This document shows positions 1,366 to 19,713 of a stretch of DNA of 64,000 nucleotides, in pieces; positions within the stretch are counted from its first letter, which is position 1, and every line of letters starts with the position of its first letter. The DNA is from Lentisphaeria bacterium (lineage in GTDB: Bacteria > Verrucomicrobiota > Lentisphaeria > Oligosphaerales > Oligosphaeraceae), in assembly GCA_024405215.1 (NCBI GenBank), contig JAKSPB010000007.1:1-64000 (forward strand), given 5' to 3'. The notes beneath the pieces were generated by a model. It was not told the origin of the DNA. It was given only the letters and a program-made list of their open reading frames with translations, and ran no database searches. A program made the position numbers and the translations under genes.

Positions 1366-1593
1366 ATGCTGAAAACTCTTACGCGTCACGGCAATAGCGC
1401 TACTCTCATCATAGAGCGACCAGTGCTGGAACTTCTCAATGCCGACCTAGATACGGTGTTTGACGTCACCACCGATGGAACGGCACTGATCATCACTCCT
1501 GTTAAAGACGCAAAACGACTTTCTGCCATACATTCGTCCATGGAACGAATTGGCAGTCGATACCGCAAGACCTTTGAGGAATTGACCAAATGA
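1366..1593 (+). CDS. MazE/AbrB-like antitoxin of a Doc toxin
   Basis: A 75-residue protein whose first 45 residues have the AbrB/MazE/SpoVT swapped-hairpin pattern (LTRHGNSATLIIERPVLELL, then ITPV). The C-terminal 30 residues are charged and would bind and neutralise the toxin. It overlaps the next gene by ATGA (1590-1593), and AAGGGAA precedes the start. Antitoxins of Doc toxins are often Phd-like; here the partner is of AbrB/MazE type, a known alternative pairing. It probably also represses its own promoter through the repeats at 1312-1340. Confidence 0.85.
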   Translation: MLKTLTRHGNSATLIIERPVLELLNADLDTVFDVTTDGTALIITPVKDAKRLSAIHSSMERIGSRYRKTFEELTK

Positions 1594-1991
1594 CCTCCTC
1601 TCCGATATTCCTCACGTTGTCTGATGTAGTCGAGATACATGCCTATCAGCTGGAGCATTTCGGCGGGATTCAAGGCATTTGTGATTTAGGATTGCTTAAA
1701 TCAGTGGTGGCAATGCCGATGGCATCCTTTGGGGAAATTATGCTCCATAAGGATATTTATGAAATGTCGGCTGCATATTTGTTTCATATTGTCAATAATC
1801 ATCCTTTCGTCGATGGCAATAAACGGACAGGAGTCATGGCCGCCCTTGTATTTCTTGATATCAATGAAATTGGCTTCAATGCTTCTGACAAGGAGCTTAC
1901 GGATATGGTCCTGCGGGTTGCGTCAGGCCAAATGCATAAGCTTGAGATTGCGTCTTTCCTGAAAGCTCATGGCGTGTGTTTGAATTCTTGA
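1590..1991 (+). CDS. doc: Doc-type (death-on-curing) Fic-fold toxin
   Basis: This 133-residue protein matches the Doc family in length and layout: an N-terminal helix starting ILTLSDVVEIHAYQLEHFGG-like, and the Fic loop HPFVDGNKRTG at about residues 69-79. The Lys replacing the second Gly of classical Fic HxFx(D/E)GNGR loops is the Doc feature; P1 Doc uses this loop to phosphorylate EF-Tu and halt translation. The His, Asp, Asn, Lys and Arg of the loop are all present, so the toxin looks catalytically intact. The start overlaps the antitoxin stop. Stable maintenance of the locus or phage response is the likely role. Confidence 0.88.
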   Translation: MTSSPIFLTLSDVVEIHAYQLEHFGGIQGICDLGLLKSVVAMPMASFGEIMLHKDIYEMSAAYLFHIVNNHPFVDGNKRTGVMAALVFLDINEIGFNASDKELTDMVLRVASGQMHKLEIASFLKAHGVCLNS

Positions 1992-3079: not shown

Positions 3080-4275
3080 TTATTGCGGCGGCATGACCTC
3101 CATGGCTTCATAGATTTTCCGCTGTTTCTCCAGGACGTTACATACGATTGGAGCCCTTCCCGGTTCGCAGATGCTCTGAATGGATTCCAGCTCAAGAAGC
3201 ATTTTTTCCATCGTATAGTCCTTGTACAGGCCCTTTTCCTGCATTTTCCTATTGATGTACGCAAGATATATCAGCGCAACAAACTCGACGAAGAGCTTGC
3301 CGTTCAATGATTCATCCGAAGACGTGAGCAGTCTCCGGCAGTTCAGCCTTTCCTTGAGGTTTCCGAAGGCCTTTTCAACGACGTCCTTGCTCCTGTATGT
3401 ACTCAGGGCGACAATGGGATCCTTTACCTCGTTGCTGATCAGGGCGAAGAAGCCATGCTCCCTTCTGGCTACCCTGACAGCCTCCTCCCTGGTTTTCACG
3501 GAGATCCCGCGCTTCGGTGTCTCATGCACTTCAAAGAACCGGGCATAGGCGTTTTCATGGCTGTCGACGCGTCTGCCGGAAAGCAGTTCCTCCCTTAGGC
3601 TGTCCAGACGCGCATTCAGTTCAAGTTCCTCGTCGGCAGCCTACTGCACACTGTAATAGACATGAAAATACATTCGCCTGCCGCCGGCAATGGTGTCCTT
3701 TTTGTACGGACGGTCCTGGGAATAGTCCCATTCCACAGCCTGGGAGGAGGCGCCGATGCCATATCTGGAATCGTAGCTTCCGTAGTCCCGTATGCCCTCC
3801 GGACTTCGGCTATGCGTTTTTTCACGAATGAAAGTCCGGTGCTGACGGCGACAATGAACTTGTGATGATGCTGTGTTGGCCTTGCTGTAGAATCCCCTGT
3901 CCATGACTAGCGTGACCCTGCCATATCCAAGGATGTCAAGTTCCCTTGCCAGCGTATTCACGGTCTTCACATCGGGAATGTTGCCTGACAGCTTCCTGTA
4001 ATGGAAGGGAAGCCCCGACTGTTCGCCGAACAGCAGAAGAAGGTTGATCTGCGGCAGATGGTCCGATTCCTTGTTCTTGCCGTACCTGACCTGCTTCAGC
4101 GTTTCGGAATAGCTTGAAATGCTGGTCGAATCATACGCCCAGTACTCCTTTTCCAGACGGCGTTTTCCCTGAAGGCGGGCGAAATCGCGGACATTTCCCT
4201 CCGATATGGAGGCGAAGAGCTTGCTGCTGTCCTGCAAAGATATGTCTTCACCGCATGGATGGACATGGTTGGCGG
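3080..4275 (-). pseudogene. decayed IS1634-type (IS4 superfamily) DDE transposase
   Basis: The reading order on the minus strand gives all three DDE segments of this family: first Asp in YWAYDSTSISSYSE (about 4120), second Asp in VMDRGFYSKAN (about 3900) and the Y-2-R-3-E-6-K signature in YRSKDVVEKAFGNLKERL (about 3370). The gene is broken. Near 3790-3880 the correct sequence (HKFIVAVSTGLSFVKKRIAE) lies in another frame, so two compensating frameshifts occurred; an in-frame TAG sits at 3641-3643, after which the same frame continues to 3080. The N-terminal portion before HPCGEDIS is missing and replaced by DUF1703 sequence. No clean terminal inverted repeats were found. Confidence 0.85.
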
Positions 4276-4376
4276 ACCAGTAGCCGAATGTATTCCGTCT
4301 TGTCCACATAGAGGAAATTCCCTTTGCGCAACTGCTCAAAGGACGAGATGTCCGGTGCGATTCGTTTCTTTTCCAT
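4262..4376 (-). pseudogene. N-terminal fragment of a DUF1703 AAA-ATPase/nuclease gene
   Basis: Starting at ATG 4376, with GGAGG eight bases upstream, the frame reads MEKKRIAPDISSFEQLRKGN and continues with FLYVDKTEYI. This is the highly typical opening of the AAA-ATPase-like family (PF09820), where YVDKT precedes the ATPase core. After about 35 residues the homology stops and the transposase remnant begins in another frame. The gene was therefore truncated by a transposon-associated rearrangement. Its own promoter element (4430-4437) is still in place. A full-length relative is at 40147-41829. Confidence 0.75.
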
Positions 4377-4429
4377 TGCCTTCCTCCGCAAAATATGCTT
4401 CTCTGCCTCTCCAATGTCGGTCTACGGGG

Positions 4430-4437
4430 ATAATATA
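4430..4437 (-). promoter_or_regulatory. TATATTAT promoter-like element
   Basis: TATATTAT followed by CCCC on the minus strand, 54 bp before the ATG of the DUF1703 fragment. The same octamer, without a recognisable -35 box, recurs at matching distances before other genes in the window. Confidence 0.45.
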
Positions 4438-4507
4438 CCCTAATCCGTTCCATGCATTGAGAAAGTCGGACTATTCCCGTAGGGAAATGGCAGAGAGAAA
4501 GGCCCAC

Positions 4508-4575: not shown

Positions 4576-5694
4576 CTAACAGCAGGGTTTGCGAAGCTCT
4601 TCAGCCAATTCGGCAGCGCCTTCCTTGTCCTTCCAGTCGCCTTCCAGAAGGGCTTCCAGAGCGGAGAAGCGCAACGCGATATTTACGCCGTGCGTCAGGT
4701 TGGGAGCGGCTACGCCCTGGGATTTGCAGAGACGGACGGCGCCGACGATGCGGTCCGCCCAGCCGAGCTTGCGCGTCAGGTCGCGGGCCACGCGGGCCAC
4801 GGCGTCGGAGAGCAGAGGGGAGACCATGCGGCGGACGAGTTCCTCCGCCCAGGTATTCCAGCCTTCCTTGGTGAAATAGGGATCAACGCCTGCGTACTTC
4901 TTGCAGAGCGCCAAGCCGGATTCGTTGATCAGGGCCTGACGGGTGTATTCCACGATCTCCGGGAACTTGGCGGCGTCGGACATGTAGGTGCAGCCACGTT
5001 CGGCGGCCATGAGGGCCAGCAGGAAGTGGGTGGCGTTATGTCCGTAGAGCTTGGCTTCCTCGAAAGGAACCAGATCCGCCTTCGGGAAGAGATTCACAAT
5101 GCCGACGTTCTCCACATCGGGAGCGCTGGAAGTGTAGATCGTGCAGAACTCCTCCACCAGGTGCCCCTTGGCAAAGCCGGGGGTCAAAGGAGGCAGGTTG
5201 CTTTCGGAAGCCAGGAAGACCTTGCTCATCTTGCCGATGACCGTATCCAGATAGTAGGTATTGGGCAGATCCATGTCAATGGCGGCCTTCAGCTCGGCGG
5301 CGGCGGTGGTGGAGTTCTCGGAAGCGTAGATGTAGCGCTTGCCGTTGGGATTCAGCGCGAAAGCCTCTTTCATCCAGCTGGCGCAGAAGGGATAGAAGCG
5401 CGTGGCGGGAAGCGCGGTATTGAAGACCAGGGCGTCCTTTCCGATCTCGATGAGCTTGGCGCGGTCGGCCTCTTCATTGGGATTCAGGACTTCGATGTTC
5501 GTGTACGTCTTGGAAGTGATGGCGTCCTTGCCTGCGGTGTTCACCGTGATGCTGCCGTTTGCGCGCAGAGCCGCGACCAACGCGGGATCCACTTCCGCCA
5601 GAACGATGCGGTCAAAGCCGCCTTGAGCTGCGCCTGCCACGAAAATGCCAGTCTGGATGGGACCGGCGCCAATGCCAATGAAAGTCTTGCTCAT
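4576..5694 (-). CDS. mannitol-1-phosphate/altronate dehydrogenase-like polyol dehydrogenase
   Basis: This 372-residue protein opens with a Rossmann nucleotide-binding loop (GIGAGPIQTG, residues 7-16). Near residue 215 it carries the family's catalytic block KLYGHNATH, corresponding to the K-x-x-x-H-N-x-x-H pattern of mannitol-1-phosphate 5-dehydrogenases. The length also fits that branch. It should oxidise or reduce a sugar alcohol or its phosphate with NAD(P). It overlaps the upstream PfkB kinase by ATGA, so kinase and dehydrogenase are probably made in step, and the terminator at 4508-4548 ends the unit. The substrate is unknown; a phosphorylated polyol is plausible given the coupled kinase. 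Confidence 0.75.
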   Translation of the reverse strand: MSKTFIGIGAGPIQTGIFVAGAAQGGFDRIVLAEVDPALVAALRANGSITVNTAGKDAITSKTYTNIEVLNPNEEADRAKLIEIGKDALVFNTALPATRFYPFCASWMKEAFALNPNGKRYIYASENSTTAAAELKAAIDMDLPNTYYLDTVIGKMSKVFLASESNLPPLTPGFAKGHLVEEFCTIYTSSAPDVENVGIVNLFPKADLVPFEEAKLYGHNATHFLLALMAAERGCTYMSDAAKFPEIVEYTRQALINESGLALCKKYAGVDPYFTKEGWNTWAEELVRRMVSPLLSDAVARVARDLTRKLGWADRIVGAVRLCKSQGVAAPNLTHGVNIALRFSALEALLEGDWKDKEGAAELAEELRKPCC

Positions 5695-6707
5695 TTCTGT
5701 GACTCCATGAATTTTCTAACTTCGGCGATGCTGACTGCACCACCCGTGCTGCTGGCATCCGCCAGATTGAAAATCGCGTTCGCGGCTCCGAGATGAAGGG
5801 ACTCCTCGACGGAAAGCCCTTCGTGAAGGGCGTAAAGCATCCCTGCGCAAAATGCGTCGCCTGCGCCGGTGGAACCGACGATCTTCGGCGCCTTGTATGC
5901 CTTGACCTGCGTTTCGGTGCCATCGGCCTCTCTCGCGTATGCGCCTTCGGGATAGTGGATCACAAGCCTCTTGTGAAGCCCGGCCTCGAAGAATTTCGGG
6001 GCGACCGCCTTCATGGCATCTAAATCCAGCGTGTCGTCATCCCGGCGGATCTTGACATTGAAGGCGTTTCCCGCCTCGATCTCATTGACGACCAGTACAT
6101 CGGTGCCAGGCATCGCCGCCAAGACCGCCGCATGGAAAATCTCCGGGGCGGTCGAAACCAAATCAAGAACGGTCAGAAGCCCCTTCGAGCGCATCTCGCA
6201 AAGAACCTTGGCGCCTTTGGTGCCATATGTCTCGTCCTTTGCGTCAAGGCCTGCCAAAAGAAGAAGATATCCAAGATAAAAGACCTTCGCATTGTAGTCG
6301 ACCTCACGGAAATCACTGTCCTGAAGGCAGTCGTTGGCGCCGTGGTTGTGGAAGAACGTGCGCTTGCCGCCTGCCGCCATGACGGTCGTATAACTCGTTG
6401 GCGCTTCCTTGGTAATGCGAATACCTCGCGTATCCACGCCTGCCTTCGCGCAGTTCTCCAGGAGCATTTTGCCATATTTGTCGTCGCCGACGCATCCAAC
6501 GCCAAAGAGCGGGATGGCGCCACTCGCCATGGCTGCCAAATCCAGCAGGACGTTATGCGCGCCGCCGCCGCCGGCAGGCGCCTCTTCCTTGAGAATGTTC
6601 GCAAGATTGCCTTCGCCAGGCCAGCGGTCCAGCTGACGAATCTCGTCAACAATCCAATTGCCCGCGCCGATAATACCGCAACGTTTTGCCATAATGGTAG
6701 TTGTCAT
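5691..6707 (-). CDS. PfkB/ribokinase-family sugar kinase
   Basis: A 338-residue kinase of the ribokinase fold. The N-terminal signature region (PAGGGGAHNVLLDLAAMAS, about residues 44-62) and the C-terminal ATP/catalytic motif (GSTGAGDAFCAGMLYALHEG, about residues 278-297, with the GAGD Asp as base) are both intact. It would phosphorylate a sugar, polyol or cyclitol. Its stop overlaps the polyol dehydrogenase start. Upstream lies a 121-bp gap containing a strong hairpin, so it may form a separately expressed pair with the dehydrogenase. Confidence 0.85.
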   Translation of the reverse strand: MTTTIMAKRCGIIGAGNWIVDEIRQLDRWPGEGNLANILKEEAPAGGGGAHNVLLDLAAMASGAIPLFGVGCVGDDKYGKMLLENCAKAGVDTRGIRITKEAPTSYTTVMAAGGKRTFFHNHGANDCLQDSDFREVDYNAKVFYLGYLLLLAGLDAKDETYGTKGAKVLCEMRSKGLLTVLDLVSTAPEIFHAAVLAAMPGTDVLVVNEIEAGNAFNVKIRRDDDTLDLDAMKAVAPKFFEAGLHKRLVIHYPEGAYAREADGTETQVKAYKAPKIVGSTGAGDAFCAGMLYALHEGLSVEESLHLGAANAIFNLADASSTGGAVSIAEVRKFMESQK

Positions 6708-6780
6708 TGAATTGAAGCCTTTCTGGAGACTCTAGGGCACAGCAGGCCATTGAGAAAAAGGCTCCCGAATAAAACCAGAA

Positions 6781-6815
6781 GCGCCGTCCCAGCCATTGCT
6801 GGCTGAAGGCGGCGC
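6781..6815 (-). terminator. GC-rich hairpin between deacetylase and kinase genes
   Basis: On the minus strand a long stem (GCGCCGCC pairing with GGACGGCGC, plus CAGCC with GGCTG inside) is followed by TTCTGGTTTTATTC. It could act as a partial terminator or RNA-stabilising structure that separates expression of the last two genes from the upstream ones. Confidence 0.5.
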
Positions 6816-6828
6816 AACTCATCAGCAG

Positions 6829-7608
6829 TTACTTCGCCATGGCGACCTTGTCGCCGAGAATCTCCTTCAGGGGATTGTAATCCGCGGCGCAGAAGCCCAG
6901 CGGATTGTGGCGGACGAATCCCTCGGCATACTGGAAGCATCCAGACTTCTTGCCGAAGATGACATGGCGAGAAACCATGTCGTCCAGATAGGCGTCCATG
7001 CCTTGGGAGACATCCAGCCACTGCTTTTGGCTGACATGCTTGCAGAGCATCGCCTTCTTGGTCTCCAGCTCGCTCTCCACGTTCACGAACAGATCCGCCT
7101 CGACAGGACGGTTGAGCTGATCGGTGATGCTGTGGGGCATGGAGTGATAGACCGCAACGTCACGCAGGGTGGGCGCGAATTTCGGATTGCAGCGCAGGTT
7201 GGTCATGCCGCGGCAAAAAGCGGCGGTTACGGCCAGCTTGCCGGTGCAGACATGGTCTTCCATGTAGTCGTAAGGACCGTGGGTCAGGATGATGGAGGGA
7301 TCCACTTCGCGGACAACCTCTGCAACACGGCAGATGTTCTCGTAGTTGTAGAAGACCTCGATGTCGTCGCAGATCGGATCGTGGAAAATCACGTCGACCA
7401 GATTTGCGGCGTCGATGCACTCCTGATGGCGCTTGGCCACGATTTGCTCGCGGCTCATGCAATTGGTGCCCAGGGAGCCATTCGCCACTGTCATGAAGTG
7501 GATTTCAACGCCCGCCTTCTGCAGCAGCAGCATGGTTCCTGCCATCCCGAACTCAATGTCGTCGGGATGGCATCCGATGGCCAAAGCACGAATCTTTTCG
7601 GATGCCAT
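6829..7608 (-). CDS. PIG-L/LmbE-family N-deacetylase
   Basis: A 259-residue protein with the zinc-binding AIGCHPDDIEFGMAGT motif at residues 9-24 (H-P-D-D binds metal and supplies the base) and a later His in LTHGPYDYMEDHVCTG (about residues 108-123) matching the family's second metal site. PIG-L enzymes remove acetyl or acyl groups from N-acylated amino sugars such as GlcNAc-inositol or diacetylchitobiose. No signal peptide, so it acts in the cytoplasm. It follows the NagB-like gene by 20 bp, an arrangement recalling deacetylation coupled to deamination or isomerisation. Confidence 0.88.
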   Translation of the reverse strand: MASEKIRALAIGCHPDDIEFGMAGTMLLLQKAGVEIHFMTVANGSLGTNCMSREQIVAKRHQECIDAANLVDVIFHDPICDDIEVFYNYENICRVAEVVREVDPSIILTHGPYDYMEDHVCTGKLAVTAAFCRGMTNLRCNPKFAPTLRDVAVYHSMPHSITDQLNRPVEADLFVNVESELETKKAMLCKHVSQKQWLDVSQGMDAYLDDMVSRHVIFGKKSGCFQYAEGFVRHNPLGFCAADYNPLKEILGDKVAMAK

Positions 7609-7628
7609 TGTTGAAACCTCCCGGGAAA

Positions 7629-8555
7629 TTAGTGCATTTCAACGTCGCAGACGCCGAAGCCGCCGCGATAGAAGTTGAAGGTCACGTCCTCGTGCAGGGA
7701 AAGCAGGGACATGGGCACTGCGCTGTCGGCTATCTTGTTGGCGATCATGTAGGTGGACAGGCGCTGTCCGAAGGGGTTGTCATGATGGCCGGGATGCCAG
7801 ATGGAGACACGGTCGCACTTCCAGGTCTCCACAGGACCCACGCTGATGGCCTGGGTGGGGACGTTCTGGACGGTGCCGCCGCCGCTGGTACGGGCATTCT
7901 GGATCAGGGTGATGGGGTGCAGCTCGACGATGCGGGTGTGCTTCTTCAGGTACTCCTCGGGCTTCGGCGGGTTGTTCTTATACTTGCCTTCGCGCTTGAC
8001 GGGGTCATTGAATGCCCAGTGCTTGGTTTCGCCCTGGCCGCCCTGCATCAGCATGCAGTGGAACTGGTCGAAGGACTTCATGTATTCCTCGGGATTCTCG
8101 CTGGGGAAGTGCAAGTTCTCCTTGGGCATGGCGAGCTTCTTGTCGATGCGGTTGAAACAAAGCTCCATGTCGGCCTTCTGGAAGCCCAAGGGGAAGTTGA
8201 TGTCGGCCGCTTTGCCGTCCACCAGCCACTCGTCCATGCCCCAGAAATGGGCATTCTTCAGGCTGATGCCCAGGGAGTTGACGATCTGGGCGACGATGGG
8301 CAGCTGCTCGGTGGGACCGATGGGGCCGCAGACGCCGCAAGGATTCTTGGCAGTGGCCTGCTTGAAGACGTTGACGTACTCCAGAGCCTCGGCTGCATAG
8401 AACTCCTGGAGGGTGTCATAGATGTTGATCTTGAAACCCTTGCGCTGCAGCTTGGGAAGATCTTCCAGGGTCAGCTTCGCGGCTGCGTCCAGGATCTTGC
8501 GGTCAAGAGTGGTGTAGTCCCACCAGTCGGCGGAAATCTTGCTGAAATTACGCAT
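7629..8555 (-). CDS. NagB/RpiA-fold, glucosamine-6-phosphate deaminase-like protein
   Basis: This 308-residue protein has the NagB-type phosphate-loop region ([14 protein letters not shown], about residues 73-86) and the active-site strand [12 protein letters not shown] (about residues 103-114), matching FNMDEY of NagB. Later segments ([20 protein letters not shown]) resemble the substrate loop of the family. It is about 40 residues longer than NagB and the sequence is divergent, so a substrate other than glucosamine-6-phosphate is likely. Cytoplasmic. Within the cluster it would isomerise and deaminate, or only isomerise, the deacetylated amino sugar. Confidence 0.72.
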
Positions 8556-8602
8556 TTTCTTTTTCCTTGGTTGGCTATGAGGTTATATGGAATGGGGGAA
8601 AA

Positions 8603-9922
8603 CTATTTTCCGGCCTTGAGTTCGCGAACAGCTTCGACGATGGCCTTCGCCTGATACTCGATCTGATCCTGGGAAAGGTTGTAGATGGGCAGATGCGTGT
8701 AGGAGGTGTAGAACATTCGCTCGGTGTTGGGGCAGGTGGCGGCAATGGCGTTCTCGTCGTAGCCAAGATCCTTCATCACCTGGAAACGGTACATGGGACC
8801 GAAATGAGTGATGTTGGTCAGGCCCTTCTCCTTCAGCTTTGCTTCCAGCTGATGGATGTCGCCGCCGATCTTCTTGGGGTCGATGCGAAGCAGATAGAGG
8901 TGGTGGGTGCCGAAGGTTTCAGCGGTATCCTGCTTTTCGACCAGAATGCCGTCTTCCTCGGCCAGCACCGCGTTGGTGTACTCGGCGGCCTTGCGGCGGA
9001 TGGCGATGATCTCGTCCAGGCGCTTCATCTGGAGCTGGAGGCCCAGGGCCTGCAATTCCGTGATAGAGCAGTTGTTGGCGATCTGGATATTGCCGAAGCG
9101 GTCGCGGAGGGAGACGATGTCATAGAGCCAGTCCTTGATCTGACGGGTGGCGTCAAGTCCAAGGAAACGAGCCAGGGAGAGCTGCTTTCCTGCGTCGTCC
9201 AGGTCGGTCAGGAGAATGCCGCCCTCGCCCAAAGAGGTGATGTTCTTGACTTCGTGGAGGGAGAATCCGCCGAAGTGTCCGATGGTTCCCAAGTACTTGC
9301 CCTTGTATTTGCCGCCCATGCCGTGAGCGCAGTCTTCCATCACGTAGATGCCGTGCTTCTTCGCCAAGTCCATGATGGGATCCATGTCCACGGGATAGCC
9401 GCCCAGGTGCACAGGGACGATCATCTTGGTCTTGGGAGTGATCTTGCGGGCCACGTCGGCGGGATCCAGATTCAGCGTCTCGGGATCCACATCCGCGAAG
9501 ACGACCTTCGCGCCAATGTGCAGCGGGTAGGCCATGGTGGCGATGAAGGTGATGGCAGGCATGATGACCTCGTCGCCAGCCTTCAATCCGGAGAGCTTGT
9601 AGGCGATCTCCATGCCCATGGTCCAGCAGCTGGTCAGCAGGGCGTACTTGGAGCCGAAGGTCTCCTTGGCAGCCTGTTCGGCGGCGTTGACCTGGTCGCC
9701 CATGGTCAGCTTAGAGGCTTTGCCGGATACGGCTGCAAGGCCGTCCAGGGCCTCGCAGACCTTCGCGAAGGCCTCGCCGTAGCCGGGCTTGTCAGCGGTG
9801 TCGGGCAGGAGGAATTTCACGAAGGACTTGACGTCCATCCCGTTGTAGAATTCCCCCACGGCATACCAGGGCACCTTGCTGGGACCCACGGCATAGCGAA
9901 AATCGTTTTTGTTGTCAGACAT
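8603..9922 (-). CDS. DegT/DnrJ/EryC1/StrS-family PLP aminotransferase (first copy)
   Basis: A 439-residue type-I-fold aminotransferase. The PLP-phosphate and ring contacts are in LLTSCWTMGMEIAYKL and VMEDCAHGMGG (Asp against the pyridine nitrogen), and the Schiff-base Lys is in SLHEVKNITSLGEGG (about residue 230). Members transfer an amino group from Glu or Gln to keto-sugars or keto-cyclitols. The first 60 residues are an extension not typical of short sugar aminotransferases. It lies 21 bp after the amidase-like gene and 47 bp before the NagB-like gene. A second, divergent copy starts the same cluster. Confidence 0.85.
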   Translation of the reverse strand: MSDNKNDFRYAVGPSKVPWYAVGEFYNGMDVKSFVKFLLPDTADKPGYGEAFAKVCEALDGLAAVSGKASKLTMGDQVNAAEQAAKETFGSKYALLTSCWTMGMEIAYKLSGLKAGDEVIMPAITFIATMAYPLHIGAKVVFADVDPETLNLDPADVARKITPKTKMIVPVHLGGYPVDMDPIMDLAKKHGIYVMEDCAHGMGGKYKGKYLGTIGHFGGFSLHEVKNITSLGEGGILLTDLDDAGKQLSLARFLGLDATRQIKDWLYDIVSLRDRFGNIQIANNCSITELQALGLQLQMKRLDEIIAIRRKAAEYTNAVLAEEDGILVEKQDTAETFGTHHLYLLRIDPKKIGGDIHQLEAKLKEKGLTNITHFGPMYRFQVMKDLGYDENAIAATCPNTERMFYTSYTHLPIYNLSQDQIEYQAKAIVEAVRELKAGK

Positions 9923-9943
9923 TATTGCTACTCCTAATTTAAA

Positions 9944-11302
9944 TTAATCCTCGCTCATCACATCCGCGTTGGGATCGAAGGAAACATTGCTTTTGAAATT
10001 TTCGACCACGGCGTTGATGAGAATCTCGGCGCCTTCGGGAGCGACGGTATTGCGTCCGGGCTGGGCTTCGTAGCCGCCACGAGCGAAGCAATCCTTCATG
10101 GGGATGTAGGGAGCGAAGGTCTGGGCCAGCTCCACCACGATGTTGCGCTTGAAAGGGGAAGCCTTGCGGATTGCCTCGGAAATGCCGTTGAAGGGCTCGC
10201 CCGGCAGAGAGCAGAAGGCCAGTTCCTTGCCGAAGCGAATCTGGGAAATGGTGCAATTGTCACCGGGGGTGCTCAAGTCATGGCAGTCCAACACACGCTG
10301 CGCGAAGAAACGCAGCGTGGTGACATCGCCGTTGGTCAGTCCTTCGCTGGTGATGTCGCCATCGCGCACGGGGACGTCCTTGGTATCCTCCAGATACTTC
10401 TTCGCGGCGTCGTATTGCTCCTGGGAGACCACGCGGTGGGGGATGAAGACCTTCGCGTTGGAAATCTCCAGCTTGCCTTCGGGAACGGGCTTCAGGTCCT
10501 TGATGATGTCCAGCACCAGCTCCGCGTAGCCGCGGCCGATGCGAACCGCCTCGTCGTAGTTGGTCTGGTCGATGTTCTCGTGGATCTTGAAGTGGTTGAT
10601 GTTACCGGAAGCGTCAATCATGGAGTAGACCGGGATGTCCTTCTTCATGGCATACTGGATGGCGGCCTCCATGCGGCCGGGCCAGTCGGCGGAGACCTTG
10701 CAGCCGCCAACGGTGTCGCAGTGGTTGGCCAGATTGACCATCAGAGCGGTCAGTTCGCCTCCCTGACGGACGCCCACCACGCGGATGTGGCGGTCGAAGT
10801 CCGTCTCCGGCCCTACGATGTCGGGGTTGCAGCGTGTGGGGTTGGTGGCCACGGAACCGTCCTTCATAAAATAGCGGCGCACGAAGGCATAGGGATTCTC
10901 GTTGCCCTCGGCATAGAGGAGTTCCGCAGGGGCCATGCTGCGCTCGGCGCGCTTCAGTGCGCGGATGGCGCCGTCTACGGCGATGGAGACACCCATGGCG
11001 CAAGGAACATCCTCGGCATTGGTGCGGGTGCCGGTATGGGTGTGGATGGCGGAAATGATGAGGTTGCCGGCATATTCAATGCCTGCGCCAAGCAATGCCT
11101 TGCGGATCTGGGCGTCAATGCCAAGCAGGTTGCAGAGGTCGAAGACCAGGAAGCCAGCCCTCACGCCGTCCTGCTCGACAAGCATGGCGCGCACGCAGAT
11201 GTCATCCAGGACGCCATCCACGGGACGACGGTTGAAATACCCCATCAAGTCTGCGCCGAACGGCGGTGTGATGATTTCCTTTGCCAGACCGATCTTCAAC
11301 AT
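9944..11302 (-). CDS. neutral/alkaline ceramidase-like amidohydrolase, cytoplasmic
   Basis: A 452-residue protein resembling the catalytic domain of neutral ceramidases (PF04734 type). It has the opening AKEIITPPFGADLMGY and the zinc-ligand stretch ISAIHTHTGT (about residues 82-91), with a further His in VNLANHCDTVGG. Known members hydrolyse the amide of ceramide, and many bacterial relatives of unknown substrate lie in sugar gene clusters. No signal peptide is present, unlike secreted ceramidases. Context suggests it cleaves an N-acyl group from an amino sugar or aminocyclitol. A 198-bp gap with little coding potential precedes it, so it may have its own promoter. Confidence 0.7.
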   Translation of the reverse strand: MLKIGLAKEIITPPFGADLMGYFNRRPVDGVLDDICVRAMLVEQDGVRAGFLVFDLCNLLGIDAQIRKALLGAGIEYAGNLIISAIHTHTGTRTNAEDVPCAMGVSIAVDGAIRALKRAERSMAPAELLYAEGNENPYAFVRRYFMKDGSVATNPTRCNPDIVGPETDFDRHIRVVGVRQGGELTALMVNLANHCDTVGGCKVSADWPGRMEAAIQYAMKKDIPVYSMIDASGNINHFKIHENIDQTNYDEAVRIGRGYAELVLDIIKDLKPVPEGKLEISNAKVFIPHRVVSQEQYDAAKKYLEDTKDVPVRDGDITSEGLTNGDVTTLRFFAQRVLDCHDLSTPGDNCTISQIRFGKELAFCSLPGEPFNGISEAIRKASPFKRNIVVELAQTFAPYIPMKDCFARGGYEAQPGRNTVAPEGAEILINAVVENFKSNVSFDPNADVMSED

Positions 11303-11427
11303 TTTTCAGCTTCTCCCAAAAGCAAAACAGAAAACTATCGTGCCCCCCTGTTTCTTTCCTAAGAAGGAAAGACAATGGGGAAACAGCGTCAAAACAGGGA
11401 ATATACTCTGAAAAACGCTGTTTCCTC

Positions 11428-11458
11428 AGCGGGAGGGGACACCTTTCCCGCTTTTTTT
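11428..11458 (+). terminator. hairpin plus T-run facing right in the gap between oxidoreductase and amidase genes
   Basis: AGCGGGA (11428-11434) pairs with TCCCGCT (11446-11452) and is followed by seven T residues on the plus strand. No plus-strand gene ends here, so its role is unclear; it may stop antisense transcription or be incidental. Confidence 0.4.
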
Positions 11459-11500
11459 CGTTTTTATGATTTTTTGCGCACGAAATGTGCGTTTTTGGGA

Positions 11501-12571
11501 CTAGATGTCCATCACCTTTCCGCCATTCTGGGCGGAGAGATGCGCCATGCGGCACTGGCGCAGGTTGCGCAGGCCGTCGGAACCATCCTGGTGCTTGCCG
11601 TTGAGGATGGAGACCGCGTGAGAGTCGATCTGCGCCTGGTAGATGTTCTGGAAGCTCTCGGGAACCAGCTGGCGGACGCCACTGGCGTCCTCGACTTCCA
11701 GGTGGACCTTGAAGGGCTCGTCGGCATGGCCGGAGAACTGGAACATGGTGCCGAACCCGCGCATCACGCCCTTGTCGCCGTAGATCTCATAGCCCTGGGC
11801 GCACATGGTGCCCACGAATCCGCCACGGGGTTCGCTGAAGGAGACCATGGCAGCGCCCTGCAGGCCATTTTCCATGGTGAACTTGATATAGGCGCCGTTT
11901 TCGGCGGCGATGGGCATGGTCTTGGGGATGTAGGACGCAGCCACGGAGACAATCTTGGAACCAAAGAGGAACTCCGCCATGTAGAAGCAGTGAGAGGCGA
12001 CGTCGCCGATGGGGCCGCCCATCTCCTCGACCTTGGAGCAGCGCCAGGTGGCGGCTTCCTGAGGAGTAGCGCCGTAGAGGAACTGCATGTGGAAGGTGCT
12101 GTCGTTCACGGTGCCAACGACGCCCTCGGCCAAGGCCTTCTTCGCCAGACGGTTGAAGGCGCTGTTGACCATCATGTGGTCCACGCCCAGGGAGAGATTC
12201 ATCTCCTTGGCGACCTTCTGCATCTCCATGACGTCCTCTTCCTTGGTGGCGATGGGCTTCTCCACCATGGCGTGCTTGCCGGCCTTCATGGCCTGGATGG
12301 CCAGGGCGGCGTGGCTGGCGTTGTTGGTGGCGATGTATACGGCATCCACTTCAGGATCGGCCAAGACTTCGTCAACGGACTTGTACCACTTCAGACCAAG
12401 GGCCTCGGCTGCCTGCTGGCGGGCAGGATTGAGGTCGAAGGCGCCCATCAGCTCGCAGTGCGGCAGAGCCTCGGGGAAACGCTTCTTGTCCATGGCGAAG
12501 CCTTCCTTGGCGACACGATTCTCGGCGATGCCGCCGAAGCCGATGAGGGCATACTGGATCTTTCCGTTCTT
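11501..12571 (-). CDS. Gfo/Idh/MocA-family sugar or cyclitol dehydrogenase
   Basis: A 356-residue oxidoreductase when begun at MKNGKIQYALIGFGG; a longer frame exists, but the upstream codons do not look like family sequence. The N-terminal Rossmann loop is GFGGIAENR, and the diagnostic EKPIATKEED (about residues 96-105) carries the catalytic Lys of the family. Members oxidise or reduce inositols, glucose derivatives and UDP-sugars with NAD(P). In kanosamine and aminocyclitol pathways such an enzyme makes the keto group that a DegT-type aminotransferase then aminates; the second DegT copy is directly upstream here, 108 bp away. Confidence 0.85.
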   Translation of the reverse strand, partial: KNGKIQYALIGFGGIAENRVAKEGFAMDKKRFPEALPHCELMGAFDLNPARQQAAEALGLKWYKSVDEVLADPEVDAVYIATNNASHAALAIQAMKAGKHAMVEKPIATKEEDVMEMQKVAKEMNLSLGVDHMMVNSAFNRLAKKALAEGVVGTVNDSTFHMQFLYGATPQEAATWRCSKVEEMGGPIGDVASHCFYMAEFLFGSKIVSVAASYIPKTMPIAAENGAYIKFTMENGLQGAAMVSFSEPRGGFVGTMCAQGYEIYGDKGVMRGFGTMFQFSGHADEPFKVHLEVEDASGVRQLVPESFQNIYQAQIDSHAVSILNGKHQDGSDGLRNLRQCRMAHLSAQNGGKVMDI

Positions 12572-12679
12572 CATAGGGAAATTGTCTTTTTGTTCAAAGG
12601 GTTCTTGTACGCAAGACATCCCCTGCCGCAAGCACGGCAGGAGATGCGGTGAATCAATAGCTTTCGTTCTACGGAAAGA

Positions 12680-13948
12680 CTACTTCATGTAGACGTCGGC
12701 GACCTTCTTGAAGGCGTCGATGTCGGCCTGGATATGCTTCTCCTCGTAGGTGGGATGGGTCCAGAAGCTAATGGTGCGGTCGGTCAGCCAGTGAGCCATC
12801 TCGCAGTTGAACTTGGTGTAGTCGATGTTGCGGGAACGAGGATCATTGAAGGGATAGCCGGCCACGCCGAAGCCGCGGCGCAGGACGTATGCGTCTTCCT
12901 TGTACATTTCGGGCCACAGCACGCTGTAGGCGGCCGCGCCTTCCTTCTGGACGGCGGCGATGAACTCCTTGCAGCTGCAGGTCAGCTTGTCGGTGTCCAG
13001 GACGAAGGGGACCAGCCAGAAGCAGTTCTGGCGCTCCTCGGTGTCGACGGGCAGGTACTTGACGAGGGGATGATCCTTGAGGGCGGCGATCAGCATCTTG
13101 CCCAGCTTCTTGCGCTGAGGCAGGTTCCAGCTGTCGAAGCGCTCCAGCTCGCCCAGGCCGATCTGGCTCTGGATCTCGGTCATGCGGAAGTTGAAGCCCA
13201 CGCGGCGATGGATGTAGAGCTGCTTGCCTTCCTTCTCCAGGAGGTTCATCTTTTCCTTCACATCGTAACCGTGGTCACGGAAGGAACGGCATTCCCAGGC
13301 CAGGTCATCGTCGTTGGTGCAGACCATGCCGCCTTCGCCGCCGGTGGTGAAGTGCTTGCTCTGGCAGAAGCTGAAGCAGCCAACGTGGCCGATGGTTCCC
13401 GCCTTCTTGCCCTTGTAGATGCCGCCGAAGCACTGCGCGCAGTCCTCGACCACGAACAGATTGTGCTTCTTGGCGATGGCCATGATGGGATCCATGTCCG
13501 CGACCATGCCGTACAGATGGACAACCACGATGGCGCGGGTGCGCTCGGTGATGGCGGCCGCGATCTGGGCAGGATCCATCAGGTGGTCGGTGGCGACGTC
13601 GACGAAGACGGGCAGTGCACCAGCCTGCAGGGCGCAGAAGGAGGAGGCGATGAAGCTGTAGGAAGTGCAGATCACTTCGTCACCGGGGCCGATGCCAAGG
13701 CTGGCCAGAGCGACGTGCAAGGCGGCGGTGCCGTTGGAGACGCTGATGGCGTTCTTCACGCCCAGCCACTTCGCCCAGGCGGCCTCGAACTGCTGACCGA
13801 CCTTGCCAGTCCAGTAGTTCACTTTGCCGCTCTTAAGAATCTCGGCGACCTTGTCGATGGTTTGGGGATTGAACTGAGGCCACGCGGGGAAAGCACCTTC
13901 GAAAACGGGCTTGCCGCCATTGATTGCCAGAGTGGATTTGTCAGCCAT
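12680..13948 (-). CDS. DegT/DnrJ/EryC1/StrS-family PLP aminotransferase (second copy)
   Basis: A 422-residue sugar aminotransferase with all core elements: SNGTAALHVALASLGIGPGD (PLP phosphate site, about residues 76-95), VVEDCAQCFGG (Asp contact) and the Schiff-base Lys in CQSKHFTTGGEGG (about residue 202). It resembles L-glutamine:scyllo-inosose or 3-amino-5-hydroxybenzoate-type members in length and layout. It is the first gene of the minus-strand cluster, with a 263-bp AT-rich upstream gap that must hold the promoter. Together with the downstream Gfo/Idh dehydrogenase it can convert an alcohol carbon to an amine or, for catabolism, the reverse. Confidence 0.88.
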   Translation of the reverse strand: MADKSTLAINGGKPVFEGAFPAWPQFNPQTIDKVAEILKSGKVNYWTGKVGQQFEAAWAKWLGVKNAISVSNGTAALHVALASLGIGPGDEVICTSYSFIASSFCALQAGALPVFVDVATDHLMDPAQIAAAITERTRAIVVVHLYGMVADMDPIMAIAKKHNLFVVEDCAQCFGGIYKGKKAGTIGHVGCFSFCQSKHFTTGGEGGMVCTNDDDLAWECRSFRDHGYDVKEKMNLLEKEGKQLYIHRRVGFNFRMTEIQSQIGLGELERFDSWNLPQRKKLGKMLIAALKDHPLVKYLPVDTEERQNCFWLVPFVLDTDKLTCSCKEFIAAVQKEGAAAYSVLWPEMYKEDAYVLRRGFGVAGYPFNDPRSRNIDYTKFNCEMAHWLTDRTISFWTHPTYEEKHIQADIDAFKKVADVYMK

Positions 13949-14211: not shown

Positions 14212-16419
14212 CTACCGCCAGACCGCCAGCAGGCAGTCACCGGCCCTCATCTCCAAGCGGATTTCGTTGGACGCCGCATTTTCCAGACTCTTGCCGTTCA
14301 GTCGGAATTCCGCCAGCTGCCCCCCGCAATGGCAGATCAGGCGCAATTCGTGGTCACGGGTCGCCTGCAGCTCCACTCTTGTCTCCGTCATCGTGCGCTT
14401 GCCGTTGACACGGAATCCTCCCGGTGCGAAAAGTCCTTCGAAACCGGCATCTGCCGCGCGGCGGCGGGAGATGCCGGCAAAGAGATGCAATACTCCTTGG
14501 CGGGAATGCAGGAAGCAGTCCTGGACAGCGGCCAGGCATCCCATGGCGCCATCCATCTGCATGATGTTCGGACGGCCATAGCAGGTGGAAAAGCCCTGGA
14601 ACTGAGCATCATGCGTCGACGCCCCGCCCTTGTTGTTGAAAACGCGCTTCCAGATTTCCAGGATCATCTCCGCGGCCTCGGGATGGTTCAACCGGTTCAT
14701 CAGCATGGCCGCCCAGGAAAGGCACCACCCGGACCACTGGCCCATCCCCAGATTCACCCAGCGTTCAAAGGAACGTGCCACAATGGGCGCCCAGGCGGGA
14801 TCTTCGGGATCAATGACATCAAAAGGACACAGCCCTGCCAGATGGGAATGGTGGCGGTGGCTTTCCTCCAGCGCCAATCCGTCCCAAAGGCCGATTTCGG
14901 CATGTTCCCTGTCTCCATAGAGGGAAACCACCGGCAGTCTCTTTTCCACGTCCTTCCAGCGCGGATCCGGCGTTTCGCCCAGGATTTCCGCTGCGACAAG
15001 AAGATTCCGGTTCAGACGATGGCAGGCGGCCAGCTGGAAGGAGGCATTGGCTCCCCAGGCATCCATCTGGGCATCGCGATACTCGGGAGAAGTCGTCAGC
15101 GGCAGGCAGAGCGTGCCGTCCGGTCGCGTCTCCATCTGCGCCAGATAGACATTCATGGCCCCCTTCATGAAGGGATAGGCAACCGATTCCAGGAAATTCC
15201 TATCGCCGGAATAGTCGTAATAGTCGAACATCATCTGCGCCACCCAGGCAGTGCAGGCGTGGTCCACGGCGCCGGTCCAGAAGTCTCCCATGCAGGTGCA
15301 CCGATCGTCCACTGAATGAGGCAGCATATAGCCATCAGGGATGCCGATGTAGAATCTGGCGTTTTCCCGAAGCTGCTCCCGCCAAGACCAGACCATGTCC
15401 AGCACGATGCGCAGATTTTCGAAGAGTCCCGCGCGGAACGCCGGCCAGTAGCACATTTCCAGATTGATGTTGAAATGATAGTCCGAAGACCATGGCGGAT
15501 AGCCGCAATCCTCAATCCAGGGCCCCTGGAGTCCTGCCGCCACGCCGCCCGGCGTGGTCATTGCCCCGAACTTGAACATCCCGTCCAGATAGAGTTCGTC
15601 CAAGACGTCGTTTCCCGTGGAGAGCTTCGGCGTCTTCTGCCAGTAGTCTTTCCACCAGACGAGATTCTCTTCCGAAAGAGCCGTCCACGACACGCAGTCC
15701 AAGACCAGCTGCCGTTTTTCCAGTTCATCCGCCGGGAGCCCCTGCCAGTATTGCGCCGTCCAGAGTTCGCCGTCCTTTCGCACCGCCAAGCCGTATGCGG
15801 GATCCGCCGGCATCTCCTGGACAAAGCCCCAGAAGTTCTCCCGCACCGTGCACCGCGGGGGAGGATAGCCATTTCCGCCCAACGCCCCCAGCCAGTTTCC
15901 GCCATCGATGATGCTGCTCTCGTAGCCGGAAAGCAGGCGGAAATCCTCCACGTCGGCACACCGGAAGGCGAAGAGGCACTTCTGTTCCATGTCCACCCGG
16001 AGTTCCAGCACGCCCTCGTTGCCGTCCGGCATCCCGTAGACGCAACGTACGAGTCCCTGAGAGCGATCCAGCTCGTTGCGAAGCAGCGTAGCGCCCTCGC
16101 GCAGGGTCAGCACCAGGCGCGCCACCGGTATGATCGTGGGGACCTGCGGATTGCCATTGGGCAGAAGGACCGTCTTGAAAATCGCCTTGAGCCCCGCCTC
16201 GTCCTTCGCCTCCAGGCAGCGCCGGATATCCCGGTAGTTCTGCGCGGGGGACCACTTCATTCCTCCCCGATGATCCCACAAGGCGCCGCATCCTACCGTA
16301 AGGGAAAGTTCCCTTCCCGTGCCCCATGCGTAAAGCCCCAGGTAACCATTGCCCAGCGGCGCCCCCTCGTGGCGGGTCGGCAACGGATATTCATGAACCG
16401 TGACAAATGACGTGGCCAT
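14212..16419 (-). CDS. GH95-like glycosidase (alpha-L-fucosidase/galactosidase family)
   Basis: This 735-residue protein has an N-terminal beta domain and an (alpha/alpha)6 barrel. The GH95 hallmarks are visible: YHFNINLEMCYW (residues 314-325, the paired Asn residues that position water), TTSPEYRDAQ (Glu about 446, the acid candidate), HRHHSHLAGL (521-530) and MQMDGAMG (620-627, Asp base). GH95 enzymes are inverting alpha-1,2-L-fucosidases or L-galactosidases. No signal peptide, so it acts on imported sugars or leaves by another route. It follows the GH16 gene by 43 bp on the same strand and is probably cotranscribed with it. Confidence 0.8.
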   Translation of the reverse strand: MATSFVTVHEYPLPTRHEGAPLGNGYLGLYAWGTGRELSLTVGCGALWDHRGGMKWSPAQNYRDIRRCLEAKDEAGLKAIFKTVLLPNGNPQVPTIIPVARLVLTLREGATLLRNELDRSQGLVRCVYGMPDGNEGVLELRVDMEQKCLFAFRCADVEDFRLLSGYESSIIDGGNWLGALGGNGYPPPRCTVRENFWGFVQEMPADPAYGLAVRKDGELWTAQYWQGLPADELEKRQLVLDCVSWTALSEENLVWWKDYWQKTPKLSTGNDVLDELYLDGMFKFGAMTTPGGVAAGLQGPWIEDCGYPPWSSDYHFNINLEMCYWPAFRAGLFENLRIVLDMVWSWREQLRENARFYIGIPDGYMLPHSVDDRCTCMGDFWTGAVDHACTAWVAQMMFDYYDYSGDRNFLESVAYPFMKGAMNVYLAQMETRPDGTLCLPLTTSPEYRDAQMDAWGANASFQLAACHRLNRNLLVAAEILGETPDPRWKDVEKRLPVVSLYGDREHAEIGLWDGLALEESHRHHSHLAGLCPFDVIDPEDPAWAPIVARSFERWVNLGMGQWSGWCLSWAAMLMNRLNHPEAAEMILEIWKRVFNNKGGASTHDAQFQGFSTCYGRPNIMQMDGAMGCLAAVQDCFLHSRQGVLHLFAGISRRRAADAGFEGLFAPGGFRVNGKRTMTETRVELQATRDHELRLICHCGGQLAEFRLNGKSLENAASNEIRLEMRAGDCLLAVWR

Positions 16420-16462
16420 TGTGTTTCTTCTTGAAAAATGAATGAAAAACCGCCCGAGACTC

Positions 16463-19400
16463 CTATTTCACCAGTTCAAAGTCAATGTGCTTGACGTTGG
16501 GACGGCTCAGGAAGAGCATCTTCAGCACGTGCCGCCCGGCCGGAAGCTCCATGGTGGTCGTGGCGACCTTGTTGATGGCATGGTCCCGGGCGCCTTCATT
16601 GACGATGGCGAATTTTCCCACGAACTCTTCATCCACGTAGAAATTCAGATATTCCTCCAGAGTATACGGGCAGCCGTAGGGAAGTGTGCACTTGTAGGTT
16701 CCGGCCTCCTGGATGTCCACCGTATAGTTCAGCCACTCGCCCATGCAGACGTATCCGATGGTGTCGCCATCCAAGTCCACATCGTCCTGGGGACGGGAGT
16801 GGTCTCTCGTAAAGGAATCGCCGGCCGTGGTGTCAAAGTATGCGACGCCATTGCCGCCCTCGTCGAAGCGGGAGAACTCCACGCGTCCGGGAATGACCTG
16901 CGCCTTCCCCTGGTAAGGGGCGCTGGGAGGCAGCCCAGGCTGCTGGATCAGGCAGAGCATCCAGGGAGGCGTGAAGGCCACCTGGCCCGATTCGTCCTGT
17001 ACGAAGACGCTGTAGCAATGGAAATTTTTCTCGAATTTCGGAACGATTCCCTGGCGTCCGGGGCGGTTGTAGTCCGTCACGTCATAGAACTCCTTGGTGA
17101 GAATGACCTTGAAGTCGTATGGCGGTTCGGTCTTGTAGTCAATGAGATAGCCGCCGTCGAAAAGATAGGCGGCCTTGATGGCGGCTCCTGTGCCTTCGTT
17201 GGGAGAGGCAGCGGCGGAAAACTCCAGCGTGTCACCATAGTTGGCGATACTTTTGTCGGGGACATTCGTCCACGAAACCGACGGCAATTCCGCAGTGGGC
17301 ATGGCGTAGATGCGCACATAGTCGGTATAGAAGCTCTCGGGATAGTGCCCGCGGTTGGGATCTCCTGCGGAGGGTTTGACCTGGCCGCTGAGGATGGGAT
17401 GCAGCGGCGTGAATCCACAGGCGTGGTTGAAAGCGTCGAAAGTGACGTTCTTGTAGTCGCTGTGGTTGGCGGTGCTCTCGATGAGCTTGCCGTCCAGGTA
17501 GTAGGTGATTTCGAAAGGCGTCCACTTGCAGGCGATGGTATGGAAGTCGTCCAGATAGTTCCCCTTGGGGGAATTGTAGTTCCAGCTCTTCAGGGTCTCG
17601 CCGCAATAGACATGGAGATTGTGGTCCAGGACATTTCTGGGAGGCTCGCCGGGATTCAAGGACGTCAGGAAGTAGTCCTCGTAAATGTCGATTTCAAATC
17701 CATCGTGGAAGGGGTTGTCGTTGGTGGGGCCATAGAGCCAGAAGGCGGACCACCAGCCGGGCTCCTTGCGGAATTTGCAGCGGGCCTCGAAGTAACCGAA
17801 GGGGAAGTACTGATATGTGTAGATAGCGCCAGTAAGGAGCTTCTCGTGCTCCGGATTCCAGTCGGTCTTGATTTCCAGAAGACCATCGTGGACAGTCACA
17901 TGGGGAGGATAGCTGGTATAGCCATGATACCACACGGAATCATCCAGCCTGTCGCCCTCGAACTCCTCGTCGAAGACCAGCTTCCAGCCCGCCTTGACAG
18001 GGTCGAAGTCCGGATCGGGCTTCACGATGTAGGGAACCGTGCTTGCGACGCCCTTCTCCGTGGCTTGCCCGACGGTGTAGTTGTCCAGCGTGACTTCCGC
18101 CGCGCCTTTCAGCGCCTGGAACTCCAGCGCAGGCGTCATTGCCTCATGGGCACGGGCGAAATCCGTGTTGCCTGAGAACTCCAGCTGACTGCCATCGGCC
18201 AGGCTGGTCACGCTGGCGGCGTAGCATCCGCGCTTTGCATTGACCGCGAAGAGGAATTCCGCAGGCAGGGAAGTCCGGGAGAACTTCCTGGTTTCCAGCA
18301 GAGTTCCGCTATCCACGACCTGGATTTCCATGCTGTCGTCGTCCTCATGATTCAGGACCTGAAGCGCCAGCGCCTCGCCGCCATCCTCCAGGCGGAAATC
18401 CAGACGGCTCTCCGAAGGCTCCGCACCGAAATTCTGCACCCGCAGGGCCACTGCACGGAAGGCATTTTCATTTTCGGGATTGGCAAAGGCGCCTGCCGGC
18501 TGTTCGATCCGCAGGGAGGAATCCGTGCGGAAGACACCCTGCCCGGTCAGCGTCAGCAGACCGGAAGTAGGATAGCCTTTGATGAGTTCCGGAGAACCGC
18601 CGCAGGTCACCTCCTTGCCGTCAAAGGACTCCGTCCATTCCATCTTGGAAAGCTTGACGCGCACCACGCGGTCTGCCAATTCCAGAGGTCCGCCCAGCAT
18701 CAGAATGGAGCTCTTGCTTCCTGTCCGCAATTTGACCGCCAGGATGTTGCGTCCTTGCTTCAGGCGAACGGTGGCCACATGGTTGTCAATGCCGTAGGGA
18801 ACGACCGCGTTGCCCGTCTCCATGGTATCCAGCACCACCTGGCCATTGACGTAATACTGCATCCACCAGTCCGCGCCGGCGCCAATGGTGTAGTCGCACT
18901 CGATGGGAGAATCAAGGACGGCAAACGCCCAGCCGCATTTTTTTTCGCCGGCTCCCAGAATCGGCGCAAAATCCAATGTGCGCTTCTGGAGAGCAACCTC
19001 CTTGCCCGCAACGCCGCCGAATGTCTCGGGGATGCGGGAGAGCTCCGTCGCCGTGGGTTCGTAGTCGTCCGCCACCGGTCCGAAGAGCGTCCAGCTCTTC
19101 GGGAAAGGTTCGCTGCCCCGGAAAGTTCCCTCCTGGACTTCCACCGACAGATCGGAAATTTCCAGTTCATCTCCCTGGTTCACCACGATGGTGAGCTGGG
19201 CGAAGCCTGTCTCTCCAGCCTTGCCGTTGAGGACCTTCAGAGGAATCGTGAAACGCTTCCAGGCATCGGAGACCCCGAAAGGCGCAACTTTCTCCGTGGA
19301 CTTGAAATTCCATTCCCGCGCGGTGGTCAGGAAAAAAAGGCCGGGCGTCGCCCAGCCGCGTCCGCGCGCCCGGAAGGAAAGACGGACCGTGTCCCCGCAG

Positions 19401-19663: not shown

Positions 19664-19713
19664 CAAGATTCTCCTATGGTTTGGTGGTCGGACTTGTCGG
19701 ACTTGTCGGACAA

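Follow-up and report, generated by a model that had tools for sequence, protein, structure and literature searches.

A modular Lentisphaeria gene cluster tentatively assigned to breakdown of a non-standard N-acyl amino sugar

What would a gut-type Lentisphaeria bacterium do with two aminotransferases, two putative deacylases, a deaminase relative, a sugar kinase and two dehydrogenases encoded in a row, and do these genes belong together at all? We address this question for a 64,000-nucleotide window (positions 1 to 64,000 of contig JAKSPB010000007.1, assembly GCA_024405215.1), whose minus strand carries, from 13948 to 4576 and in 5' to 3' order, genes for a first DegT/StrS aminotransferase (DegT-1, AT1), a Gfo/Idh dehydrogenase, a ceramidase-like amidase (CER), a second DegT aminotransferase (DegT-2, AT2), a NagB-like protein, a PIG-L deacetylase, a PfkB kinase and a mannitol-1-phosphate-dehydrogenase-like (MtlD-like) enzyme. 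All eight open reading frames (ORFs) are complete and intact, in agreement with an original prediction that had described one same-strand cluster for an amino-sugar or aminocyclitol pathway. Comparison with relatives supports functional linkage of these genes. Our tentative reading is an accessory gene set, put together from three modules, for the catabolism of a non-standard N-acyl amino sugar, and we give this assignment somewhat less than an even chance.

Co-inheritance and modular arrangement of the cluster genes

Co-occurrence was assessed in 50 sampled genomes of the class, 22 with and 28 without the NagB-like gene, using lists compiled by hand. Gfo/Idh was recovered in 19 of the 22 carriers, AT1 in 16, CER in 15 and AT2 in 11, with each of the four found in 0/28 non-carriers. 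Linkage of the cluster genes is thus supported by the restriction of Gfo/Idh, both DegT genes and the amidase to NagB-like-carrying genomes of the sampled class.

Gene neighbourhoods were compared in two sets, a phylum search of 145 genomes with seven of the eight proteins as queries, from which 94 neighbourhoods were read, and 80 loci taken from contigs scanned at one genome per species. Genes in these loci were called with a simple codon-usage caller, some starts being misplaced, and taxa are named as in the records, most of which are metagenome bins. Three separable modules are apparent. The first unites NagB-like and PIG-L, which are adjacent in most carriers: PIG-L lies in the neighbourhood of NagB-like in 30/34 phylum loci, and the two occur together, across many phyla, in 64 of the 78 second-set loci with a NagB-like call. 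The second consists of AT1 and Gfo/Idh, often followed by the amidase; orthologues of AT1 (74-87%) occur in a further 13 genomes of the class, 13 of the 16 genomes that gave a match have AT1 next to Gfo/Idh, and the amidase follows this pair in six genomes, the source genome included. PfkB and MtlD-like form the third and are adjacent in G064, G112 and G139, beside a D-lyxose-isomerase-type gene; several relatives have PfkB next to MtlD-like and/or a D-lyxose isomerase gene. AT2 (orthologues at 69-76% in 10 other class genomes) is mostly found away from the other cluster genes, adjoining a Gfo/Idh gene in one case (L108) and lying near creatininase-family genes in two (L106, L107). At the first of these two loci, in genus g17 (L106:3451-12053), AT2 is accompanied by two creatininase-family genes, a GH130-like enzyme and an FGGY kinase.

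These modules recombine in several ways. AT1, Gfo/Idh, CER, NagB-like and PIG-L are contiguous in genus g12 (L046, L050, L051) and at L189 and L209, and PfkB and/or MtlD-like adjoin the NagB-like core in Lentisphaeria, Opitutales and Planctomycetota (L190, L178, L197, L237, L247). Outside the class, a DegT gene adjoins the core in Cytophagales (L220), Bacteroidales (L231, with several ceramidase-like genes besides), Spirochaetaceae (L242) and Chloroflexota (L226). Altogether DegT neighbours were seen at eleven loci, nine after merging close relatives, against about two expected by chance if DegT genes were scattered at the density of the source genome (six strong matches in 3 Mb). The nearest relative recovered, L173 (Victivallales, from goat abomasum), whose NagB-like protein is 89% identical, carries a short piece of AT1, Gfo/Idh, MtlD-like and PfkB on the opposite strand, after which come NagB-like and PIG-L. 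Across both sets the complete set of eight is contiguous in the source genome only, so that a conserved eight-gene operon is rejected; the single fixed pathway of the original prediction dissolves into modules, with gene order rearranged among relatives. Separation or variability of this kind had been named there as speaking against a common function, as had transcripts of unrelated units with no shared substrate; a lack of shared substrate does not follow here, given the strong co-inheritance of most of the genes and the rejoining of modules in other phyla.

The NagB-like protein and its companion enzymes

Families were assigned by Pfam and NCBIfam profile searches with curated cut-offs, and the family names given earlier stand, less firmly for 'ceramidase' and 'NagB-like', both of which are backed by fold. 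The NagB-like protein is apparently a widespread, uncharacterised relative of glucosamine-6-phosphate deaminase, with at least 569 confirmed places in the scan of one-genome-per-species contigs and 74% mean column identity over 29 orthologues. The window protein has no Pfam family match and scores 30.9 bits against the nagB model TIGR00502 (cut-off 236.9 bits, not reached); its predicted structure (predicted local distance difference test score, pLDDT, 88.9) nonetheless has NagB proteins as all of its best Foldseek matches (E 6e-17), sharing the fold of Escherichia coli NagB (PDB 1dea) and the Borrelia protein 3hn6 at about 20% identity. When aligned to E. coli NagB, it keeps Asp72, His143 and Arg172 as Asp108, His179 and Arg222, the first two invariant, while Asp141 is replaced by Thr177 (Thr, Val or Ile in relatives), Gly142 by an invariant Lys178, Glu148 by Asp184 and Lys208 by an invariant Asp259. 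In NagB, Asp72 and His143 are catalytic and Lys208 binds phosphate; the NagB-like protein also has an invariant Glu83, located in what is the phosphate-binding loop of NagB. Because two acidic residues stand where NagB binds phosphate and the lysine is lost, the alignment suggests, as a weaker inference, that the substrate of the NagB-like protein is unphosphorylated. The source genome also encodes a canonical nagB (L261), whose residues at the mapped active-site positions are those of E. coli, and a nagA above its cut-off, which places the cluster in addition to the ordinary N-acetylglucosamine (GlcNAc) route and rules out that it substitutes for GlcNAc genes the genome lacks. Another, divergent NagB relative at L259:5164-6885 is followed by a nagA-like ORF with an in-frame TAG, possibly truncated, and at L043 (G007) both NagB-like and PIG-L are seemingly broken by frame changes, possibly through decay or an assembly fault.

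The PIG-L protein, the sole PIG-L found in the source genome, exceeds the PF02585 cut-off and carries the metal motif CHPDD, with HPDD at residue 14. Bacillithiol biosynthesis was rejected for it, as the BshB1 model gave 98.1 bits against a cut-off of 182.5 bits and BshC was not found in the genome. The PfkB kinase has the GAGD motif, and its gene is overlapped by that of the MtlD-like protein. The latter falls short of the best NCBIfam M1PDH model (95.7 vs 356 bits), keeps the KxxxxNxxH motif and matches mannitol-1-phosphate 5-dehydrogenase structures by phmmer (E 1e-7).

Both aminotransferases score above the PF01041 cut-off and contain pyridoxal-phosphate lysine motifs (SKHFTTGGEGG in AT1, VKNITSLGEGG in AT2). 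CER lies below the PF04734 cut-off (22.3 vs 32.1 bits), and its AlphaFold model (pLDDT 86) confidently matches neutral ceramidases alone (2zws of Pseudomonas aeruginosa: E 1.7e-24, TMq 0.71, TMt 0.53), sharing with these and with human 4wgk the catalytic-domain fold and the His-Thr-His-Thr metal motif. Across 12 homologues, residues H87, H89, H194, E369 and Y399 show little or no variation, and H194, E369 and Y399 may correspond to ceramidase zinc ligands; the stretch that would carry the ceramidase serine reads SGNINH in CER, a possible Ser-to-Asn change. With 452 residues against about 640, it is short of a full-length neutral ceramidase with its C-terminal domain, and since it is both shorter and below the Pfam cut-off it is filed as ceramidase-like rather than as a ceramidase. 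A true ceramidase acting on sphingolipids is disfavoured despite the fold match, given the short length, the sub-threshold profile and a signal peptide that is not evident by eye.

Reaction scheme and competing explanations

From these families and neighbourhoods we infer a set of reactions, their order and a catabolic direction. PIG-L would strip the N-acyl group, and the NagB-like protein would then convert the amino-aldose into a ketose with release of ammonia. PfkB would phosphorylate the ketose. A class II aldolase might then cleave the product, or the MtlD-like enzyme might interconvert it with the phosphate of a sugar alcohol. In a branch, CER could free another N-acylated amine, which DegT would turn into a ketone to be reduced by Gfo/Idh. 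The substrate entering the cluster is perhaps not phosphorylated. N-deacylation, deamination and phosphorylation, as originally predicted for an amino sugar, thus fit the families and neighbourhoods. Breakdown is favoured over synthesis by the company that these genes keep, namely regulators of sugar-utilisation types (AraC, GntR, LacI, ROK), D-lyxose isomerase, a phosphotransferase-system (PTS) permease and a class II aldolase, whose gene stands next to NagB-PIG-L-PfkB in two genomes (G061, recognised by Pfam, and G006, recognised by eye from the N-terminus). Ketose breakdown is also indicated in genus g8 (L118, L119, L121, L138), where the gene ahead of PfkB is a fusion of class II aldolase and short-chain dehydrogenase.

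Adjacent Gfo/Idh dehydrogenases and pyridoxal-phosphate aminotransferases, as found in the cluster, are known from the WbpB/WbpE and NtdC/NtdA pairs, which exchange a hydroxyl group and an amine through a ketone. Unlike those pairs, the one studied here is accompanied by deacylases and a deaminase, and for this reason it probably runs in the amine-removal direction.

Several observations weigh against catabolism of an N-acyl amino sugar by one linked gene set. Its full complement stands together in a single genome. PfkB and MtlD-like also occur without NagB-like (14/22 carriers vs 7/28 non-carriers, and 12/22 vs 4/28), and the Fisher p values for co-occurrence, 5e-11 to 9e-3, ignore shared ancestry. 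DegT and Gfo/Idh pairs are best known from biosynthesis, and their reactions run either way. The invariant Lys178 could bind an acidic group, which would allow a phosphorylated or uronic substrate, and the compared neighbourhoods show no consistent link between the cluster and a dedicated transporter or glycosidase.

The alternative that survives best, possible though we hold it to be unlikely, is that two unrelated units lie side by side, DegT and Gfo/Idh (perhaps with the amidase) serving a surface-glycan amino sugar and NagB-PIG-L-PfkB-MtlD being catabolic. It is consistent with the structured gaps between modules described below, with genus g8, where the AT1-Gfo and NagB-PIG-L pairs are on different contigs, and with the three PfkB-MtlD genomes above, which lack NagB-like; the absence of AT1, Gfo/Idh, AT2 and CER from 28/28 non-carriers and the presence of DegT beside the core in Bacteroidota, Spirochaetota and Chloroflexota records argue the other way. 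A biosynthetic role appears improbable; in it the product would be an amino sugar or aminocyclitol, an amine would be introduced by Gfo/Idh and DegT, and PIG-L would unmask an amine, much as happens on the way to aminoglycosides or UDP-diamino sugars. PIG-L and DegT genes do coexist in aminoglycoside-type clusters, and perosamine synthetase and 2-deoxy-scyllo-inosose aminotransferases are among the proteins of known structure that come closest to AT1. Against this, no cyclitol synthase, nucleotidyltransferase or glycosyltransferase is found among the eight genes, the NagB-type, PfkB, class II aldolase and D-lyxose isomerase proteins are of catabolic types, and the regulators are those of sugar utilisation. 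Aminoglycoside-like biosynthesis is disfavoured on the same gene content, and the aminocyclitol half of the original prediction finds no specific support, Gfo/Idh reaching 92.5 bits against the 355-bit cut-off of the inositol 2-dehydrogenase IolG model (TIGR04380). Inositol or inosamine catabolism is likewise unsupported, the IolG and IolC models lying far below cut-off (IolB, IolD and IolE were not searched).

Less probable again is a second route for GlcNAc or N-acetylgalactosamine through the usual 6-phosphates, with PIG-L in place of NagA and the NagB-like protein in place of NagB. Deacetylation followed by deamination is the step order of the standard route, and in the chitin pathway of Thermococcus kodakarensis Dac, a member of the PIG-L superfamily, deacetylates unphosphorylated GlcNAc and diacetylchitobiose in a catabolic route (PMC6566704). 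The cluster differs from that pathway in having no chitinase or glucosaminidase, and its NagB-like protein and DegT/Gfo branch have no described counterpart there; moreover, canonical nagB and nagA are already present, and the phosphate-binding lysine and Asp141 of NagB are lost.

Catabolism of a non-standard N-acyl amino sugar could be extended to the family as a whole, NagB-like proteins being deaminases/isomerases for unphosphorylated amino sugars that, with PIG-L and the DegT-Gfo-amidase branch, would dismantle diamino sugars without phosphorylation (2,3- or 2,4-diacetamido sugars from bacterial glycans, for example). Such a pathway would be widespread among Planctomycetota-Verrucomicrobiota, with scattered occurrences in other phyla; we regard this extension as a long shot. 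In keeping with the original prediction, no description of the gene set was found in the open-access literature searched, which is weak evidence since most subscription papers lie outside that scope.

Transcript layout, surroundings and significance

Of the seven junctions in the cluster, five are at most 121 bp, one is a 198 bp gap and one a 4 bp overlap (Table 1). The Gfo/Idh start was set at the ATG at 12574, a longer TTG start at 12631 having no orthologue support. The original prediction had the cluster ended by one terminator; a strong one indeed closes it, and two further structured gaps lie inside. Within the 198 bp that separate Gfo/Idh from the amidase, the stretch 11470-11380 folds strongly (minimum free energy -31.4 kcal/mol, z -4.86), its hairpins being a probable transcript boundary or attenuator, and the 121 bp gap between PIG-L and PfkB has a weaker hairpin (z -2.57 over the surrounding 61 nt). 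The two stretches may mark where one transcript gives way to the next or may serve as attenuators, and they broadly match the module borders seen in relatives.

Table 1. Genes and structured elements of the cluster, in transcriptional order
Feature	Position	Strand	Length and basis
DegT/StrS aminotransferase 1 (AT1)	13948-12680	-	422 aa; PF01041 311 bits
Gfo/Idh/MocA dehydrogenase	12574-11501	-	357 aa; PF01408 88 bits
Two hairpins, Gfo/Idh-amidase gap	11452-11428 and 11424-11380	-	hairpin scan, folding
Ceramidase-like amidase (CER)	11302-9944	-	452 aa; weak PF04734, fold match
DegT/StrS aminotransferase 2 (AT2)	9922-8603	-	439 aa; PF01041 263 bits
NagB-superfamily protein, cluster core	8555-7629	-	308 aa; Foldseek to NagB
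PIG-L/LmbE deacetylase	7608-6829	-	259 aa; PF02585 73.1 bits
Hairpin with T-rich tail, PIG-L/PfkB gap	6782-6761	-	hairpin scan
PfkB-family sugar kinase	6707-5691	-	338 aa; PF00294 120 bits
Mannitol-1-phosphate-dehydrogenase-like (MTLD/MtlD-like)	5694-4576	-	372 aa; PF08125 55 bits
Strong intrinsic terminator closing the cluster	4548-4512	-	17 bp stem and T-tract; z -6.41

Directly downstream of the terminator, two adjacent minus-strand ORFs (3080-4507) resemble by eye the pieces of a broken insertion-sequence-type transposase, the one at 3080-3529 having no Pfam family match, and a Fic/DOC family protein of 133 aa is encoded further on (1590-1991, plus strand). Upstream on the minus strand, 263 bp from AT1, are genes for a glycoside hydrolase of family GH95 and for a large GH16 protein that weakly matches the carbohydrate-binding family CBM6 (14212-19786); no link of these two to the cluster is conserved in relatives. 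Beyond them, also on the minus strand, are a NamZ-type exo-beta-N-acetylmuramidase (20400-21758), which adjoins the rpoN (sigma-54) gene at 21503-23068, and a second PfkB-family kinase of the window (24329-25336).

The cluster provides a clear example of modules that co-occur while standing apart in the genome, and residues Asp259, Glu83 and Lys178 of the NagB-like protein make its substrate testable. If the linkage is right, bacteria of animal guts, waters and sediments would have a route of amino-sugar breakdown, represented by these genes, that goes unrecognised in standard family annotation.

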